Assembly (NCBI GenBank): GCA_025350465.1
Contig: JANXXU010000006.1
Location: forward strand, 124,001-188,000
Reading direction: 5' to 3'
Origin: Alphaproteobacteria bacterium
Lineage (GTDB): Bacteria; Pseudomonadota; Alphaproteobacteria; Micropepsales; Micropepsaceae
Length of the DNA stretch: 64,000 nucleotides
Of the stretch, positions 47,175-56,261 are shown one piece after another (within the stretch, counting starts at the first letter, position 1; every line of letters starts with the position of its first letter). Under the pieces are notes generated by a model that saw only the letters and a list, made by a program, of their open reading frames with translations, did not search any database and was not told the origin of the DNA. Made by a program: the position numbers and the translations under genes.

Positions 47175-48623
47175 ATGGCGGAAAACAAGCTTTTGAAGTT
47201 CGTGACCACTGGCCGGCAAATGCCGACGAAGCGGCCGGCGGGTGCGCGCGCCCACGATTTTCAAGAGATTTTTGGCGAGTACATCACTCAAAAGGCTGAG
47301 GAGCAGGCTGGCCGCTGCTCGCAATGCGGCGTGCCGTTTTGCCAGGTCCATTGCCCGCTGCAGAACAACATTCCCGACTGGCTGAAGATGACCGCCGAGG
47401 GTCGGCTTGAGGAGGCCTACGAACTCGCTTCCGCCACCAACAACATGCCCGAGATCTGCGGTCGCATTTGCCCGCAGGACCGCCTCTGCGAGGGCAACTG
47501 CGTCATCGAACAATCAGGTCACGGCACGGTGACGATCGGCGCCGTCGAGAAATACATCACCGAGACCGCCTGGAGCCGCGGCTGGATCAAGCCGATCGCG
47601 CCGGCACGCGATCTCGCTCGCTCGATCGGCATCGTCGGTGCGGGACCGGCAGGCCTCGCCGCTGCCGAGCAGATGCGCGCCAAGGGCTACGCCGTCACCA
47701 TCTACGATCGCTACGACCGGGCAGGCGGCTTGCTGATCTATGGCATCCCGAACTTTAAGCTCGAGAAACCGGTTGTCGAACGTCGCACCAAACGGCTCAT
47801 CGCCAGCGGCGTCCACATTCGCCAAAACAGCGAAGTCGGCCGCAACGTTGCGCTTGGCGAACTTCGCGCTCGCCACGACGCCGTGTTGATCGCGACCGGA
47901 GTCTACAAGGCGCGCGACATGGCGGCACCCGGCGTCGGGCTCGCCGGCATCGTCCCCGCGATGCGCTATCTCACGGCGTCGAACCGCAACGGTCTGGGCG
48001 ACAAGGTCAAGGAATTCGACAGCGGCGCGCTCAATGCCGCCCGTCGCAATGTTGTCGTCGTCGGCGGCGGCGACACGGCGATGGATTGCGTGCGCACGGC
48101 GGTGCGCCAAGGCGCAAAGTCCGTGACGTGCCTCTATCGCCGCGATCGCGAGAACATGCCTGGATCGCTCCGCGAAGTGACGCATGCGGAAGAAGAAGGC
48201 GTCGTCTTCTCATGGCTTTCCGCTCCAAAGGCGTTCTTGGGCGACAAGCGCGTCAAAGGTGTGCGTGTGATCAAGATGCGTTTGGGCGCGCCTGACGTGA
48301 GCGGCCGCCACGTGCCCGAGGAAGTGCAGGGCAGCGAACACAATGTCGACGCCGACCTCGTGATCATGGCGCTGGGCTTTGATCCGGAGGATTTGCCGGC
48401 AATGTTCGCCGAACCGGCGCTCGCCGTCACGCGCTGGGGCACGCTCAAGATCGACTACAAGACGATGATGACGTCGCTGCCGGGCGTGTTTGCCGCCGGC
48501 GACATCGTGCGCGGCGCTTCGCTCGTTGTTTGGGCGATCCGCGACGGCCGCGACGTTGCAGAGGCGATGCACAAATATCTCGAAGCGAAAGCCGCGCCCA
48601 CAATGCGCGCCGCTGCGGAGTGA
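47175..48623 (+). CDS. gltD: glutamate synthase small subunit
   Basis: AEEQAGRCSQCGVPFCQVHCPLQNNIPDWL, IVGAGPAGLAAAEQMRAKGYAVTIYDRYDRAGGLLIYGIPNFKLEK, VVVVGGGDTAMDCVRTA. Confidence 0.96.
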   Translation: MAENKLLKFVTTGRQMPTKRPAGARAHDFQEIFGEYITQKAEEQAGRCSQCGVPFCQVHCPLQNNIPDWLKMTAEGRLEEAYELASATNNMPEICGRICPQDRLCEGNCVIEQSGHGTVTIGAVEKYITETAWSRGWIKPIAPARDLARSIGIVGAGPAGLAAAEQMRAKGYAVTIYDRYDRAGGLLIYGIPNFKLEKPVVERRTKRLIASGVHIRQNSEVGRNVALGELRARHDAVLIATGVYKARDMAAPGVGLAGIVPAMRYLTASNRNGLGDKVKEFDSGALNAARRNVVVVGGGDTAMDCVRTAVRQGAKSVTCLYRRDRENMPGSLREVTHAEEEGVVFSWLSAPKAFLGDKRVKGVRVIKMRLGAPDVSGRHVPEEVQGSEHNVDADLVIMALGFDPEDLPAMFAEPALAVTRWGTLKIDYKTMMTSLPGVFAAGDIVRGASLVVWAIRDGRDVAEAMHKYLEAKAAPTMRAAAE

Positions 48624-48628
48624 ACCAT

Positions 48629-51600
48629 ATGACCGACTCTGCCGAACAGGAACTGCAGCGCTATCTGGACAACGCAAAAAAACTCGAAGAGGGCCACGCT
48701 TATTCGCCGTCGGACGAGCACGACGCCTGCGGTGTGGGCCTCGTCGCGGCCGTCGATGGCAAGCCGCGCCGTGAAGTCGTGGTCAACGCGATCAATGCGC
48801 TGAAATGCGTCTGGCATCGTGGCGCCGTCGACGCCGACGGAAAGACCGGCGATGGCGCGGGTATTCACATCCAAGTGCCGCAGGATTTCTTTTCCGACGA
48901 GGTGCGCGCGACCGGCCATGAGTTGGAAGGCGGCCGTATCGGCATCGGCATGATCTTTCTGCCGCGCACCGATTATGCCGCGCAGGAGGCATGCCGCACG
49001 ATCGTCGAAGCCGAGATCTTGCGCTTCGGCTATTACATCTATGGCTGGCGCCAGGTGCCGGTCGACATCTCCGTCATCGGCGAAAAGGCGAACGCGACGC
49101 GCCCCGAGATCGAACAGATCATGTTCGACACCGGAGAGAAAACCAATGTCGATGCGATCGAGCGGGATCTTTTTCTCATTCGCCGCCGCATCGAGGCAGC
49201 GGTGCGCCGCGCCAGCATTCCGAATTTTTACATTTGCTCGCTGTCGACGCGTTCGCTGATCTACAAGGGCATGTTCTTGGCCGAGCAGCTCTCGACCTTT
49301 TATCCGGATTTGCAGGACGCGCGCTTCATCTCGCCGATGGCGATCTTCCATCAGCGCTATTCGACGAACACCTTCCCGACCTGGCATTTGGCGCATCCCT
49401 TCCGGATGCTCGCTCACAACGGCGAGATCAACACGCTCAAAGGCAACGTCAACTGGATGAAGAGCCATGAGATCCGCATGGCCTCCGAAGCGTTCGGCGA
49501 CTACCAGGAAGACATCAAACCGATCATCCAGCCGGGTTCGTCGGACTCCGCCGCGCTCGACGCGGTATTCGAAGTGTTGTGCCGCGCCGGCCGCACGGCG
49601 CCGATGGCCAAGCTGCTGTTGATTCCGGAAGCCTGGTCGAAGAAGGGCACCACCATGCCCGACTCGCATCGCGCGATGTATTCTTATGCGAACGCGGTGA
49701 TGGAACCGTGGGACGGACCGGCGGCAATCGCCGCAACCGACGGGCACTGGGTCATGGCGGGGCTCGACCGCAACGGCTTGCGCCCGCTGCGCTACACGCT
49801 CACCGATGATGGATTGCTGTTCGTTGGCTCCGAAACCGGCATGGTTGTGTTGCCGGAGGCAAAGATCAAAAAGAAAGGCCGCGTCGGCCCCGGACAGCTG
49901 ATCGCCGTCGATCTTGTCGAAGGTCGCTTCTACGACGACCGCGCGATCAAGGACAAATTGGCGGCCGAGCTGCCGTACGAAGAATGGACGAAGAACGTCG
50001 TCGATCTCGATCCGATCATAGGACCGGGGCCGGAGCCGCGCCTGTTCGAAGAAAAGAGCGATCTGCGCCGTCGTCAGCTCGCCGCCGGAATCTCGATCGA
50101 AGACCTCGAAATGATCCTCCATCCGATGGTCGAGGATGCGAAAGAGCCCGTGGGTTCGATGGGCGACGACGCGCCGCTCGCTGTGCTCTCGGCGCAATAT
50201 CGACCGCTCTCGCATTATTTCCGGCAAAACTTCAGCCAAGTGACGAATCCGCCGATCGACTCGCTTCGCGAAGACCGCGTGATGAGCTTGCGGACGCGCT
50301 TCCGCAATCTCGGCAATGTCCTGGCGCAGGACAAGAGTCAGGTCGAAGTCTTCACGCTCGAAAGTCCGGTGATTTCGACCGGAATGTTCATCCGCATGAA
50401 GGAGCATTTGATCGGGCGCTTCTATGAAATCGATTGCGTGTTCGACATAGGTGCCGAAGGCGGGCGCGATGGTGCGCTCAAGGCGGCGCTCGACCGCATT
50501 TGCAAAGAAGCGGAGGAAGCGGTTGCCTCCGGTTATAGTCATTTGATCCTGACGGACGAGCGCGTCGGCCCCGGCATTGCGCCGATCCCGATGATCTTGG
50601 CGACAGGCGCCGTCCACACGCATCTCGTCAAGACGCGCATGCGCACGTTCACATCGCTCAACGTGCGTGCCGCCGAGTGCATGGACACGCATTATTTCGC
50701 TGTATTGATCGGCGTCGGCGCGACGACGGTGAATGCGTATCTGGCCCAAGAATGCATCGCCGAGCGTCACGCGCGCGGCCTCTTCGGCAATCGTCGCCTC
50801 GGTGAGTGCGTCAAACGCTATCTCGACTCCGTCGATGCCGGCTTGCTCAAGATCATCTCCAAGATGGGCATCTCGGTCATCTCGTCCTATCGCGGCGGCT
50901 ACAACTTTGAGGCCGTCGGCCTGTCGCGTTCGATGGTCGCCGAATATTTCCCCGGCCTCTCGTCGCGCATTTCCGGCATCGGCCTCAACGGCATCCAGAA
51001 GCGCATCGCCAAGATGCACGTGCGCGCCTTCGATGAAGATGTGACGGCCCTCCCGATCGGCGGCTTCTATCGCTATCGCAAGGGCGGAGAGACGCACGCC
51101 CACTCCGCGCAGTTGATCCACCTGCTGCAGGAAGCCGTCACGCGCGAGGCTTATCAGACGTTCAAGAAATATTCCGAGATACTGCGTGAATCGCCGCCGA
51201 CGAGCTTGCGCCATCTCATGGATTTCCGCCCACGCGGACGCACGCCAATTCCGACGGAAGAGGTCGAATCGATCACCGAGATCCGCAAGCGCTTCGTGAC
51301 GCCGGGCATGTCGCTGGGCGCGCTCTCGCCCGAGGCGCACGGCACGCTCAACATCGCCATGAACCGGATCGGCGCAAAGTCGGACTCGGGCGAAGGCGGC
51401 GAGGACCCGTCGCGCTTCAAGGCGCGTCCCAACGGCGACAACGCGAACTCTGCGATCAAGCAGATCGCCTCGGGCCGCTTCGGCGTCACCGCGGAATATC
51501 TGAATCAATGCCGCGAGATCGAGATCAAGATCGCGCAAGGCGCCAAGCCGGGCGAGGGCGGCCAGCTGCCCGGCTTCAAAGTCACCGAGATGATCGCCAA

Positions 51601-53179
51601 GTTTCGCTTGGCGACGCCGGGTGTGACCCTCATCTCGCCGCCGCCGCATCACGACATTTATTCCATCGAAGATCTGGCACAGCTCATCTACGACCTCAAG
51701 CAGATCGCGCCGACCGCGCGCGTCTGTGTGAAGCTCGTGGCCTCGACTGGCATCGGTACGATCGCGGCCGGCGTTGCGAAGGCCAAGGCCGACGTTATCT
51801 TGATCTCGGGTCACGTCGGCGGCACCGGCGCGTCGCCGCTGACTTCGATCAAATATGCCGGTGTGCCGTGGGAGATGGGGCTCACTGAAGTCAATCAACT
51901 GTTGACGCTCAACAATCTGCGCCATCGCATCGTGCTGCGCACCGATGGCGGCATTCGCACCGGCCGCGATGTGGTGATGGCGGCGATGATGGGCGCTGAA
52001 GAATACGGCATAGGTACCGCCGCTCTCATCGCCATGGGTTGCATCATGGTGCGCCAGTGTCATTCCAATACCTGTCCCGTTGGCGTGTGCACGCAGAACG
52101 AGGAGCTACGCAAGAAATTCACCGGCACGGCCGAGAAAGTCGTGAACCTGATGAGCTTCATCGCGGAGGAAGTCCGCGAGATCTTGGCCTCGCTTGGTTT
52201 CCGTTCGCTGAAGGAAGTCATCGGCCGCACGGACCTCTTGGGCCAGTTCAATCGCGGTGCCCACGATCTCGACGACCTCGATCTGAATCCGCTCTTGGTG
52301 CAGGCGGATCCCGGTCCGCACCCGCGCTATTGCACGATCGACGGACGCAACGAAGTGCCGGACACGTTGGACAAGGAAATCGTGCGCGACGCGCAGCGCT
52401 TCCTGGACGACGGCGAAAAAATGCAGCTGACCTACACCGTGCGCAACACGATGCGCGCGATCGGAACGCGCACGTCGTCTCATATAGTGCGCAAATACGG
52501 CATGAAGGGCCTAAGTCCCGGGCAGCTCACGCTCGAACTCCGCGGCTCGGCCGGCCAATCGCTCGGCGCCTTCGCGGTCCAAGGGCTGAAGCTCAAACTC
52601 TTCGGCGACGCTAACGACTATGTCGGCAAGGGCTTGTCGGGCGCGACCATTATCGTGCGCCCGATGGTGTCGAGCCCGCTTGAGAGCCAAGACAACGTCA
52701 TCATCGGCAACACGGTTCTCTACGGCGCGACGTCCGGCAAATTATTCGCGGCCGGCCAAGCTGGCGAACGATTCGCCGTACGCAATTCCGGCGCGCTCAC
52801 GGTGGTCGAAGGCTGCGGCTCGAACGGTATTGAATATATGACAGGCGGCGTTGCGGTTATCCTCGGCGCGGTCGGTGACAATTTCGCGGCAGGAATGACC
52901 GGCGGCATGGCGTTTGTCTATGACCTGCACAACGAGATCGCCCACCGCCTGAACGTCGACAGCGTAGCCGAGCCAATGCGGCTGAGGTCGCAGTATTGGG
53001 AACACTTGTTGCTCGGTCTCATCGAGGAGCATGCGGCCGAAACCGGTTCGCGGCACGCCAGACGCATTCTCCAGCAATGGGACGTTGAGCGTGCCCGCTT
53101 TTGGCAAATCTGCCCAAAGGAAATGCTCACACGCCTCAAGCACCCGTTGAGCGACGAGGTCGAAGCCGTCCGGGCGTGA
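48629..53179 (+). CDS. gltB: glutamate synthase large subunit
   Basis: DACGVGLVAAVDGKPRREVV (N-terminal Cys glutaminase), NRNGLRPLRYTLTDDG, SDSGEGGEDPSRF, ISGHVGGTGASPLTSIKYAG, CHSNTCPVGVCTQ; start reassigned to 48629. Confidence 0.97.
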   Translation: MTDSAEQELQRYLDNAKKLEEGHAYSPSDEHDACGVGLVAAVDGKPRREVVVNAINALKCVWHRGAVDADGKTGDGAGIHIQVPQDFFSDEVRATGHELEGGRIGIGMIFLPRTDYAAQEACRTIVEAEILRFGYYIYGWRQVPVDISVIGEKANATRPEIEQIMFDTGEKTNVDAIERDLFLIRRRIEAAVRRASIPNFYICSLSTRSLIYKGMFLAEQLSTFYPDLQDARFISPMAIFHQRYSTNTFPTWHLAHPFRMLAHNGEINTLKGNVNWMKSHEIRMASEAFGDYQEDIKPIIQPGSSDSAALDAVFEVLCRAGRTAPMAKLLLIPEAWSKKGTTMPDSHRAMYSYANAVMEPWDGPAAIAATDGHWVMAGLDRNGLRPLRYTLTDDGLLFVGSETGMVVLPEAKIKKKGRVGPGQLIAVDLVEGRFYDDRAIKDKLAAELPYEEWTKNVVDLDPIIGPGPEPRLFEEKSDLRRRQLAAGISIEDLEMILHPMVEDAKEPVGSMGDDAPLAVLSAQYRPLSHYFRQNFSQVTNPPIDSLREDRVMSLRTRFRNLGNVLAQDKSQVEVFTLESPVISTGMFIRMKEHLIGRFYEIDCVFDIGAEGGRDGALKAALDRICKEAEEAVASGYSHLILTDERVGPGIAPIPMILATGAVHTHLVKTRMRTFTSLNVRAAECMDTHYFAVLIGVGATTVNAYLAQECIAERHARGLFGNRRLGECVKRYLDSVDAGLLKIISKMGISVISSYRGGYNFEAVGLSRSMVAEYFPGLSSRISGIGLNGIQKRIAKMHVRAFDEDVTALPIGGFYRYRKGGETHAHSAQLIHLLQEAVTREAYQTFKKYSEILRESPPTSLRHLMDFRPRGRTPIPTEEVESITEIRKRFVTPGMSLGALSPEAHGTLNIAMNRIGAKSDSGEGGEDPSRFKARPNGDNANSAIKQIASGRFGVTAEYLNQCREIEIKIAQGAKPGEGGQLPGFKVTEMIAKFRLATPGVTLISPPPHHDIYSIEDLAQLIYDLKQIAPTARVCVKLVASTGIGTIAAGVAKAKADVILISGHVGGTGASPLTSIKYAGVPWEMGLTEVNQLLTLNNLRHRIVLRTDGGIRTGRDVVMAAMMGAEEYGIGTAALIAMGCIMVRQCHSNTCPVGVCTQNEELRKKFTGTAEKVVNLMSFIAEEVREILASLGFRSLKEVIGRTDLLGQFNRGAHDLDDLDLNPLLVQADPGPHPRYCTIDGRNEVPDTLDKEIVRDAQRFLDDGEKMQLTYTVRNTMRAIGTRTSSHIVRKYGMKGLSPGQLTLELRGSAGQSLGAFAVQGLKLKLFGDANDYVGKGLSGATIIVRPMVSSPLESQDNVIIGNTVLYGATSGKLFAAGQAGERFAVRNSGALTVVEGCGSNGIEYMTGGVAVILGAVGDNFAAGMTGGMAFVYDLHNEIAHRLNVDSVAEPMRLRSQYWEHLLLGLIEEHAAETGSRHARRILQQWDVERARFWQICPKEMLTRLKHPLSDEVEAVRA

Positions 53180-53260
53180 TGGGTCGGCGCCGGCGAACGT
53201 GGCGTCTGTTGCGCCCTTGAACTTGCGCTATGCGCGCCCCTCCGCCTATTTCTCGCATCC

Positions 53261-54400
53261 ATGGATGGAACCCACAGCGAGTCGTCCGGGGCCTGGACGC
53301 TGCGTTTGCGGATCGACGGCGTCGAACACGCCGGGCGAGCTACGATGGTCGAAACCGTAGTGGAGGCCCTTCCGGGCATACGCTGGGCGCGGGTCGACTA
53401 CGCACTTGCACACATCGATATTCGCGGCAGGGGACCAATCGACGAAGCTGAATTGGTTGCCGCTGTTGCAGGCACCGGGTGTACTTTGCGCGCCATGGGG
53501 GAAGAAGATCATCCCGAGCCCGACCATTCCGCCAGCGACGACCACGACGAGCCGGTCGCCGAACCCGACCGTTCGCCGGATGAGCATGGCGAGGACGATG
53601 GTCGAGGCGAGGACGCGCGTGGTGATGACGTTGCTGACGACGGTGCGCGATCTCTTTCGGATATCTTCCGCAGCGGCTCCGACGACGGCCAGCCTGGAGA
53701 CACGGCCCCACGCGAGGCCTCCGGCCTTAACATCTTCGGCTTCTTCGCACATGTAGCGCTTTGGTGCCTTGCGGTCTCCCTGTTGTGGGCACTCGCTTAT
53801 CGCGTCCTTCCGGTGCCGATGACGATGCCGATGTTCGGCGATGCGGTCTTCGGAAACGGCGTTCGCAACCATTGGGTATCGCTCGAGCGCATCTCGCCCA
53901 ATCTTATTCGCTCGGTTATCGCCTCCGAGGACAATGAGTTCTGTCATCACTACGGCTTCGATTTCGGCGAAATCCATGATGCGCTGCGCGAGGCCCAGAA
54001 CGGAGGCCGAGAACGCGGCGCCTCCACCATCAGCCAGCAGACCGCGAAGAATGCGTTTCTCTGGGCCGATCACTCGTGGTTGCGCAAGGCGCTCGAAGCG
54101 TATTTCACGTTGGTAATCGAAACGCTCTGGCCGAAGCGGCGCATTATGGAAGTCTATTTGAACATCGCCGAGTGGGGCGATGGTATCTACGGGGCGGAAG
54201 CCGCCGCGCGTCATTGGTTTCACAAGCCGGCGTCGCGCTTGAGCGCATTGGAGGCCGCCAGGCTCGCCGCAATTCTGCCGGCGCCGGATCGCTGGAAGGC
54301 AAGCCCAGCGGGTCCCTATGTTGTGTCGCGCTCCTACACAATCATGGCGCGGGCAAATAGCGTCGATCTCGGTGGCGACGATCGCTGCGCACGGCCGTAA
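53261..54400 (+). CDS. mtgA: monofunctional biosynthetic peptidoglycan transglycosylase with N-terminal HMA-like domain and acidic linker
   Basis: C-terminal GT51: LIRSVIASEDNEFCHHYGFDF, GASTISQQTAKNAFLW, RIMEVYLNIAEWGDGIYGAEAAARHWF; N-terminal LRIDGVEHAGRATMVETVVEALPGIRWARV. Confidence 0.9.
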   Translation: MDGTHSESSGAWTLRLRIDGVEHAGRATMVETVVEALPGIRWARVDYALAHIDIRGRGPIDEAELVAAVAGTGCTLRAMGEEDHPEPDHSASDDHDEPVAEPDRSPDEHGEDDGRGEDARGDDVADDGARSLSDIFRSGSDDGQPGDTAPREASGLNIFGFFAHVALWCLAVSLLWALAYRVLPVPMTMPMFGDAVFGNGVRNHWVSLERISPNLIRSVIASEDNEFCHHYGFDFGEIHDALREAQNGGRERGASTISQQTAKNAFLWADHSWLRKALEAYFTLVIETLWPKRRIMEVYLNIAEWGDGIYGAEAAARHWFHKPASRLSALEAARLAAILPAPDRWKASPAGPYVVSRSYTIMARANSVDLGGDDRCARP

Positions 54401-54459
54401 ATGGGCCGCAGCCGCTTCACACTGGACGCGCGTGTGCTGATCCCTCATCTTCCGCGTCC

Positions 54460-55137
54460 ATGCGCCACCTTCACCATTTTGTGCTGTCGCCGTTTTGCCG
54501 CAAGGTTCGTCTCGTGCTCGGCGAGAAGAAGCTCACCTTCGATCTGGTGCCCGAACGGCCATGGGAACGGCGTGCCGAATTCTTGGCGCTGAATCCGATG
54601 GGTCAAGTGCCGGTCATGATCGAAGAAAGCGGCGTCGTCATCGCCGATAGCGGCGCCATCGCTGAATACTTCGAGGAGATTCATCCAGAGCCGTCCTTGA
54701 TGCCGGCACGACCGCCCGAGCGGGCCGAAGTTCGGCGTCTCGTCGCGCTCTATGATCAGCTTTTTTTCACCGAGGTCTCCGGCGTCCTGTTGCGCGAAAA
54801 GGTCCTGAAGCGCTTTGGCTGGGGCACTGACGGCTCGACCTCGCCCGACCTCACCGCCATTCGCGCGGCCCTCGACTCCTTGCGCAGACTTTTGGCTTAC
54901 ACCGGCGAGCTTGGTGAAAGGCGCGGTTGGCTGGCGGGGCCATTGAGTCTGGCCGACTTCGCCGCCGCCGCCCATATTTCATGTATCGATTATCTCGGTG
55001 ACATCGCTTGGGAGACGGCGCCAGAGGCGAGAGAATGGTATGCGCGCGTCAAGTCGCGGCCCTGTTTCCGGCCGTTGCTGACCGATCATTTGCCCGGCAT
55101 GCCGCCGCCGCGCCATTATGCAAACCTGGACTTTTAG
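54460..55137 (+). CDS. glutathione S-transferase family protein
   Basis: LSPFCRKVRLVLGEKKLTFDLV...NPMGQVPVMIEESGVVIADSGAIAEYFEE. Confidence 0.9.
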   Translation: MRHLHHFVLSPFCRKVRLVLGEKKLTFDLVPERPWERRAEFLALNPMGQVPVMIEESGVVIADSGAIAEYFEEIHPEPSLMPARPPERAEVRRLVALYDQLFFTEVSGVLLREKVLKRFGWGTDGSTSPDLTAIRAALDSLRRLLAYTGELGERRGWLAGPLSLADFAAAAHISCIDYLGDIAWETAPEAREWYARVKSRPCFRPLLTDHLPGMPPPRHYANLDF

Positions 55138-55148
55138 GTGACTGTGTG

Positions 55149-56261
55149 ATGCAGGCGTTGCGCGAGGCCATCCGCGATCGCGCTCTAGCTGAGGGCTTTG
55201 ACGCAATCGGCTTTGCGCCCGCCCAGTTGGGGGCCGAAGCTTCGCAAGGGCTGGTGGAATTCTTACAGGCTGGCTTCCACGGCGATATGGGTTGGCTGGC
55301 CGAGCGCTCGCGCGAGCGTGCCCAACCGACCGCGTTGTGGTCGCAGGCAAAAACGGCGATCGTCGTCGGGCTGTCCTATGCGCCGAAAGACGATCCGATG
55401 ACGCTGCTCGCACACAAGGAGCGCGGACTCATTTCTGTCTATGCGCGCGGCGGCGATTATCACGAGGTGATGAAATCCCGCCTGCGGCGCGTGGCGCGGT
55501 GGTTGAGCGAGAAACACGACGCCGGCGTCAAACTGTTCGTCGACACGGCGCCCTTGATGGAAAAGCCGTTGGCGATGGCGGCGGGTCTCGGTTGGCAGGG
55601 CAAGCACACCAACTTGGTCAGCCGGGATCACGGTTCGTGGCTGTTCCTCGGCAGCATCTTGACGACCTTGGAGTTGGCCGCCGACGAACCGCATGCGGAT
55701 CATTGCGGCACCTGTCAGCGTTGCCTTGACGTTTGTCCGACGAACGCCTTTCCGGCGCCTTACAAGCTCGATGCGCGCCGCTGCATTTCTTATTTGACGA
55801 TCGAGCACAAAGGTCCGATCCCGCATGAGCTGCGGCCCCTAATGGGCAACCGCATCTACGGCTGCGACGATTGCCTGGCGGTCTGTCCCTGGAACAAATT
55901 CGCGCACAGCGGTCGCGAAGCGGCCTTTCATGCGCGCATCGAATTGAATGCACCGATGTTGGCCCAATTGGCGCAGCTCGACGACGGTGCGTTCCGAAAA
56001 CTGTTTTCGGGCTCGCCGATCAAGCGGATAGGGCGAAATCGCTTCATACGCAACGTCCTCATCGCCATCGGCAATTCGGCCTTGACCGCATTGGTGCCCA
56101 ACGTCGAAGCGTTGTTGAACGATGCGGCCCCGCTCGTCCGCGGCGCGGCAGTTTGGGCATTGAGCAGGTTGGCCGGCGGCGCGGAGTTCCTGGTGCAAAA
56201 GACCGCCCGTCTATCGGTCGAAGACGACGCAACCGTTCGCGACGAATGGAACAGCGCTTGA
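55149..56261 (+). CDS. queG: epoxyqueuosine reductase
   Basis: FHGDMGWLAERSRERAQP, HADHCGTCQRCLDVCPTNAFPAPYKLDARRCISYLTIEHKGPIPHELR, YGCDDCLAVCPWNKFA. Confidence 0.96.
   Translation: MQALREAIRDRALAEGFDAIGFAPAQLGAEASQGLVEFLQAGFHGDMGWLAERSRERAQPTALWSQAKTAIVVGLSYAPKDDPMTLLAHKERGLISVYARGGDYHEVMKSRLRRVARWLSEKHDAGVKLFVDTAPLMEKPLAMAAGLGWQGKHTNLVSRDHGSWLFLGSILTTLELAADEPHADHCGTCQRCLDVCPTNAFPAPYKLDARRCISYLTIEHKGPIPHELRPLMGNRIYGCDDCLAVCPWNKFAHSGREAAFHARIELNAPMLAQLAQLDDGAFRKLFSGSPIKRIGRNRFIRNVLIAIGNSALTALVPNVEALLNDAAPLVRGAAVWALSRLAGGAEFLVQKTARLSVEDDATVRDEWNSA

Follow-up and report, generated by a model that had tools for sequence, protein, structure and literature searches.

A metal-site-less HMA domain on the glycosyltransferase MtgA and its probable descent from a CopA-MtgA fusion

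Within the window (the whole 64,000-nucleotide stretch of DNA analyzed here) we describe hma-mtgA, a gene that joins a peptidoglycan glycosyltransferase of the MtgA family to an N-terminal heavy-metal-associated (HMA) fold without metal-binding cysteines, and we find that in sister genera mtgA is instead fused to a complete Cu+-ATPase of the CopA type. We consider it probable that HMA-MtgA descends from a CopA-MtgA fusion through loss of the ATPase core and the metal site, the polymerase being kept and the cytosolic domain now being structural or vestigial.

The hma-mtgA gene and its N-terminal fold

The gene and its surroundings are laid out as follows; the three neighbors are named from reading of their sequences.

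48530..53179, + strand: gltB (glutamate synthase large subunit), upstream of hma-mtgA
53223..53228, + strand: -35-like element TTGCGC of a promoter conserved in the window's genus
53247..53252, + strand: -10-like element TATTTC, 8 nt ahead of the ATG
53261..54400, + strand: hma-mtgA, 379 amino acids; ATG at 53261, frame ending at 54400
53291..53497, + strand: degenerate HMA domain, residues 11-79, with CxxC replaced by HxxR
53498..53731, + strand: acidic linker of low complexity, residues 80-157, with little conservation of length or composition
53732..53806, + strand: predicted transmembrane helix, residues 158-182, which lines up with the membrane-anchoring segment of other MtgA proteins
53858..54325, + strand: GT51 glycosyltransferase domain, residues 200-355, with the motifs EDNEFCHHYGFD, GASTISQQTAKN, RKALEAYF, and KRRIMEVYLN intact
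54460..55137, + strand: glutathione S-transferase (GST)-like gene, downstream, conserved across the family
55008..56261, + strand: QueG-like gene, a conserved neighbor given as the listed open reading frame; its true start is probably near 55150

Judged by its sequence, the window gene is an ordinary monofunctional MtgA, a lipid II polymerase by family. The whole protein scored 240.4 bits against TIGR02070 (MtgA) over residues 159-368, above the curated cut-off of 182.65, and PF00912 (GT51, 160.7 bits) was the sole Pfam family over its cut-off; no transpeptidase domain was present, and DUF2267 gave a weak match in the full-length protein. The GT51 catalytic motifs were invariant across eight relatives. 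Thus, the protein resembles MtgA (TIGR02070, GT51, PF00912) in its full-length match, transmembrane anchor, and catalytic motifs but differs from it by about 158 extra N-terminal residues bearing the HMA fold, whereas most MtgA proteins of the family have about 25-60 residues ahead of the transmembrane helix. A full-length AlphaFold model (pLDDT 49.5, of low confidence outside the HMA domain) was used for the transmembrane helix only, its helix blocks having pLDDT values of 57-67. Because of the placement of this helix, and by analogy with the topology of the MtgA family and CopA, the N-terminal extension is very probably cytosolic, as the first-pass annotation had supposed. A 400-amino acid open frame (window 53246-54448, - strand) lies antisense to the entire gene and is most likely an effect of high-GC codon usage.

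Relatives were sought in ten other genomes of the window's genus. Seven of the ten (G001, G002, G004, G005, G008, G009, and G010) contained a complete orthologous frame with the same layout, namely a short start, an HMA-like domain, a mostly Pro/Glu-rich linker, a transmembrane helix, and GT51, and an eighth (G006) contained a fragment with the HMA part at a contig end, behind gltB. No MtgA was seen in G007, and the G003 genome is 64% complete. The fusion of an HMA domain to MtgA in one frame, HMA first, was therefore confirmed in the window and in its genus relatives.

On the window protein alone, PF00403 scored 14.9 bits (residues 16-73, E 0.037) against a gathering cut-off of 24.8; hence, the HMA assignment of the first-pass annotation could not rest on the window sequence alone. 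It was borne out by the relatives and by structure prediction. The orthologous stretch exceeded the PF00403 cut-off in G002, G004, G005, G008, G009, and G010 (34.6-48.2 bits) and in the G006 fragment (34.4 bits), and a profile of eight N termini matched the metal-binding domains of CopA and PacS in the PDB (E 3.6e-15 for PacS). Further, an AlphaFold model of the window domain, built on the eight-row alignment, had a mean pLDDT of 82 and the beta-alpha-beta-beta-alpha-beta order, and it aligned with the PacS, CopA, MerP, and ATP7B domains at TM scores of about 0.7-0.8 (0.68-0.79 for the CopA/PacS domains). We reject a chance resemblance to HMA, given how the orthologues score in Pfam, what their profile matches in the PDB, and how the domain folds in the model, and the N-terminal domain is a genuine HMA fold without the metal-binding cysteines. 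Compared with the HMA domains of CopA/PacS Cu+-ATPases and CopZ/MerP (PF00403), it has the same fold and spacing and retains G20, E31, P38, and G39, but it has no CxxC and is joined to a glycosyltransferase.

Could the extension nevertheless go unmade, with translation starting near the transmembrane helix and the HMA-like frame being a relic or open merely by chance? No clear Shine-Dalgarno sequence was seen before the window ATG, and the subthreshold score of the window protein on its own would fit such a reading, which we nonetheless regard as highly improbable. The start codon and an MG[DE]S-like N terminus are conserved in eight genomes. All eight relatives have a promoter with CTTGC at -38 to -35 from the ATG, an 18-bp spacer, a -10 element starting with TA, and 5-8 nt to the ATG (that of G010 was read by eye, the scripted table having given another CTTGC for this genome), and the CTTGC-18bp-TA pattern precedes 8 of 4650 ATGs in the loci of these relatives. 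Between the window and G001, dN/dS was about 0.25 in the HMA part, 0.52 in the linker, and 0.07-0.08 in GT51, suggesting moderate purifying selection, and thus protein-level constraint, on a domain whose fold is itself confidently predicted. A downstream start was rejected on the conserved start codon and promoter and on this constraint; the extension is very probably translated, in agreement with the first-pass annotation, and with the -10 element only 8 nt from the ATG, the transcript would probably be leaderless.

The metal site and the linker

Both metal-binding cysteines had been described as replaced, and in the window these positions are indeed H and R (GVEHAGR). CxxC was found in none of the nine genus members seen: the first cysteine is gone from all nine, the second is kept in six (G002, G004, G005, G006, G009, and G010), and the site is free of cysteine in the window, G001, and G008. 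The linker had been called His/Asp/Glu-rich, which holds for the window protein (36% D/E, four His), but the His richness is not conserved in the genus. Over eight relatives the His counts were 4, 1, 0, 0, 0, 0, 3, and 0; a His-rich linker is confined to the window genome and, in part, G009, and the other linkers are Pro/Glu/Ala-rich with 0-1 His. On these counts we rejected a metal-binding linker.

The results bear on the proposal that the extension is an active regulatory arm, in which the HMA domain and linker would respond in the cytosol to a metal or to a partner, for instance a copper chaperone, and tune glycan polymerization. Consistent with such an arm are the preserved fold and its moderate purifying selection, the second cysteine in six of nine members, and the genetic linkage of copper-type pumps to mtgA in the family (see below). 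However, no member has CxxC, three have no cysteine at the site at all, the His-rich linker is not conserved, and the copper regulator CueR is absent from the ten genus genomes searched. We therefore judge a regulatory arm to be quite unlikely, and a metal-sensing role, as suggested in the first-pass annotation, is not supported by the sequences.

Copper-type ATPases fused to mtgA or beside it

In three genomes of three sister genera (G012, G013, and G016), mtgA is the C terminus of a complete HMA-type Cu+-ATPase in one frame of 959-1002 amino acids. The genera with fusions are g3, g4, and g7, G013 belonging to g4 and G016 to g7.

L048:5133-8138, - strand: CopA-MtgA fusion
L049:6499-9390, + strand: CopA-MtgA fusion
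L050:1258-4131, + strand: CopA-MtgA fusion

The uninterrupted frames run through HMA (47-54 bits, GMTCxxC), E1-E2 ATPase, hydrolase, and Transgly domains, and the ATPase motifs TGES, CPC, DKTGT, and GDGxND and the TM7/TM8 copper signatures YN/MxxSS, as read from the sequences, are intact. Like these fusions, the window protein is one frame with HMA first and MtgA last; in contrast to them, it has no P1B ATPase core between the two in the Pfam scan, a linker standing in place of the core, and no CxxC, both of which the fusions possess in full. The first-pass annotation, although correct about the HMA-MtgA fusion, had missed these CopA-MtgA proteins, which give the extension its probable origin. 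Its remark that it knew of no description of the architecture agrees with our literature search, which found no description of HMA-MtgA or CopA-MtgA, most subscription papers lying outside the search.

The G016 fusion promoter carries TTGACCTT-10-AAGG, and the same spacing recurs at several other sites of the G016 genome. CueR exceeded the NCBI cut-off in G012, G013, G016, G018, G026, and G047 and, by the same cut-off, in none of the 10 genus genomes searched. Because the dyad in the G013 promoter has a different spacing and no CueR-like dyad was found in the genus promoters, CueR control of the fusion promoter is only suggested. A 244-amino acid MerR-type regulator without metal-site cysteines is encoded between gltB and CopA-MtgA in G013 (L049:5753-6484, + strand) and near mtgA in G018 (L051:11916-12653, - strand).

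In genera g2 and g5, an ATPase of a different subfamily lies upstream of mtgA, directly and on the same strand at nine loci and at 1-2 kb at three more.

Directly upstream: L052, L060-L062, L064, L065, L067-L069
At 1-2 kb upstream: L059, L063, L066

These P1B ATPases form one clade (100/99) and, in the two members scanned, contain YHS and HMBD domains and no HMA. In G045, G104, G106, and G126 the match runs through the ATPase and mtgA across a single TAA. Some of these loci (G104, G106, and G126) were chosen on the strength of a known ATPase match, and the share of loci with an ATPase is therefore not an unbiased rate. Outside the family, no ATPase was found within about 1.5 kb of mtgA at any of 28 loci, and neither fusion was seen in 385 genomes of the class and 399 of the phylum when the best two candidates per genome were scored, a depth at which rare fusions could be missed; the order as sampled consists of one family of 96 genomes.

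Two further kinds of copper-related locus were observed. Downstream of mtgA in a different alphaproteobacterial family (f37), at about 0.7-1 kb and in convergent orientation, is a small CopZ-like gene (GIxCGGC). G007, the genus member whose search turned up no mtgA, carries a copper island that encodes, besides a CopZ-like protein, a P1B ATPase with an HMA domain and additional HMA proteins.

L137:2871-3119, - strand: CopZ-like gene of f37
L144:2971-3228, - strand: CopZ-like gene of f37
L130:222-482, + strand: CopZ-like gene of f37
L150 (G007:C310:38000-48748): copper island

Descent of HMA-MtgA and its meaning

The MtgA tree, the gene order, and the promoter geometry together favor a CopA-MtgA ancestor that lost its core. 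The MtgA tree places the G016 fusion as sister to the HMA-MtgA clade of the genus (99/90), and this fusion is the nearest MtgA relative of the genus. The G013 fusion occupies the same locus, with the order gltD-gltB-MerR-X-GST, that is, the order of the window locus plus a MerR gene, with gltB again upstream; further, the gene just before X is common to G016 (g7) and G001. The G013 and G016 fusion promoters (TTGACC-19bp-TATCTC/TTAGTC, ending 6 nt before the ATG) have the same geometry to the ATG as the TTGC-18bp-TA promoters of the genus. A check tree of the neighboring QueG placed g1, g3, g4, and g7 on one side, together with two g5 genomes (87/88). The presence of CueR in G012, G013, and G016 and its absence from the 10 genus genomes searched also speak for this reading, as do the moderate purifying selection on the genus HMA and its placement with canonical CopA HMAs.

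We infer from this evidence that the direction of change was core loss. In an ancestor shared with g3, g4, and g7, an HMA-type copA would have been fused in frame to mtgA; since the C terminus of CopA is cytosolic, this fusion would keep the topology predicted for HMA-MtgA. The window's genus would then have lost the ATPase core but kept the promoter, the start codon, the HMA domain, and MtgA, a low-complexity linker now filling the gap, and CxxC would have decayed, its first cysteine being already lost in the genus ancestor. The present protein would be a membrane-anchored GT51 enzyme that polymerizes lipid II in the periplasm and whose cytosolic N terminus is the leftover domain of a Cu+-ATPase; this domain, now only a fold, would most likely serve as a soluble cap, structural or for protein contact, or persist as a tolerated vestige, rather than sense metal.

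The trees of the other two parts are less accommodating. Genus HMAs fall with canonical CopA HMAs, apart from the other HMA-ATPase of these genomes (GxRCAxCIAKIERG type), which is thus not supported as their source, but the HMA tree does not specifically group them with the HMAs of the fusions. Scored with the genus profile, CopA HMAs from outside the family (68 and 65 bits) did no worse than the HMA of the G016 fusion (62 bits). Shared descent of the HMA domain with the fusions is therefore pointed to by the MtgA tree and gene order, but not by the HMA tree alone. The three fusion ATPases group weakly (62/77) on long branches, G018, also of g4, has an mtgA without any ATPase or HMA, no intermediate or remnant of an ATPase core was seen, and the promoter geometry could be that of a generic leaderless promoter.

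These observations leave some room for independent captures, in which the genus acquired a stand-alone HMA (CopZ-like or the 5' end of a copA), the sister genera separately acquired a whole copA, and mtgA is a recurrent point of attachment for copper genes in the family. In this family mtgA is found together with ATPases of two unrelated subfamilies, the HMA type fused and the YHS/HMBD type unfused upstream, which would be in keeping with such captures, as would an HMA tree that does not join the genus to the fusions and the small CopZ-like genes beside mtgA in f37. They would not, however, lead one to expect that the nearest MtgA relative is a CopA-MtgA fusion of like domain order, that G013 has the gene order of the window locus, or that promoter and start geometry are common to the fusions and the genus; we consider independent captures unlikely. 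Overall, descent by core loss from a CopA-MtgA ancestor accounts better for these findings.

We know of no well-established physiological role for MtgA, and a partner fixed to it by gene fusion is therefore informative. Taken by itself, the window gene is a minor curiosity; more surprising is the CopA-MtgA fusion to which it led. If core loss is true, the window gene represents a later stage, in which the pump has been lost and the metal-binding fold left, and it is an example of a multidomain protein reduced by internal deletion. More speculatively, CopA-MtgA may act as copper exporter and polymerase in one protein, coupling Cu+ export physically to glycan-strand synthesis under a promoter that is metal-responsive in some genomes, with the HMA-MtgA of the genus a descendant in which the retained cytosolic domain regulates the polymerase or gives it a contact site, although we hold this to be doubtful. 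The Cu+-ATPase fused in three genera and the second type of ATPase upstream of mtgA in others suggest a functional tie between copper export and peptidoglycan synthesis in this lineage, and a link between copper and the cell wall thereby becomes testable.
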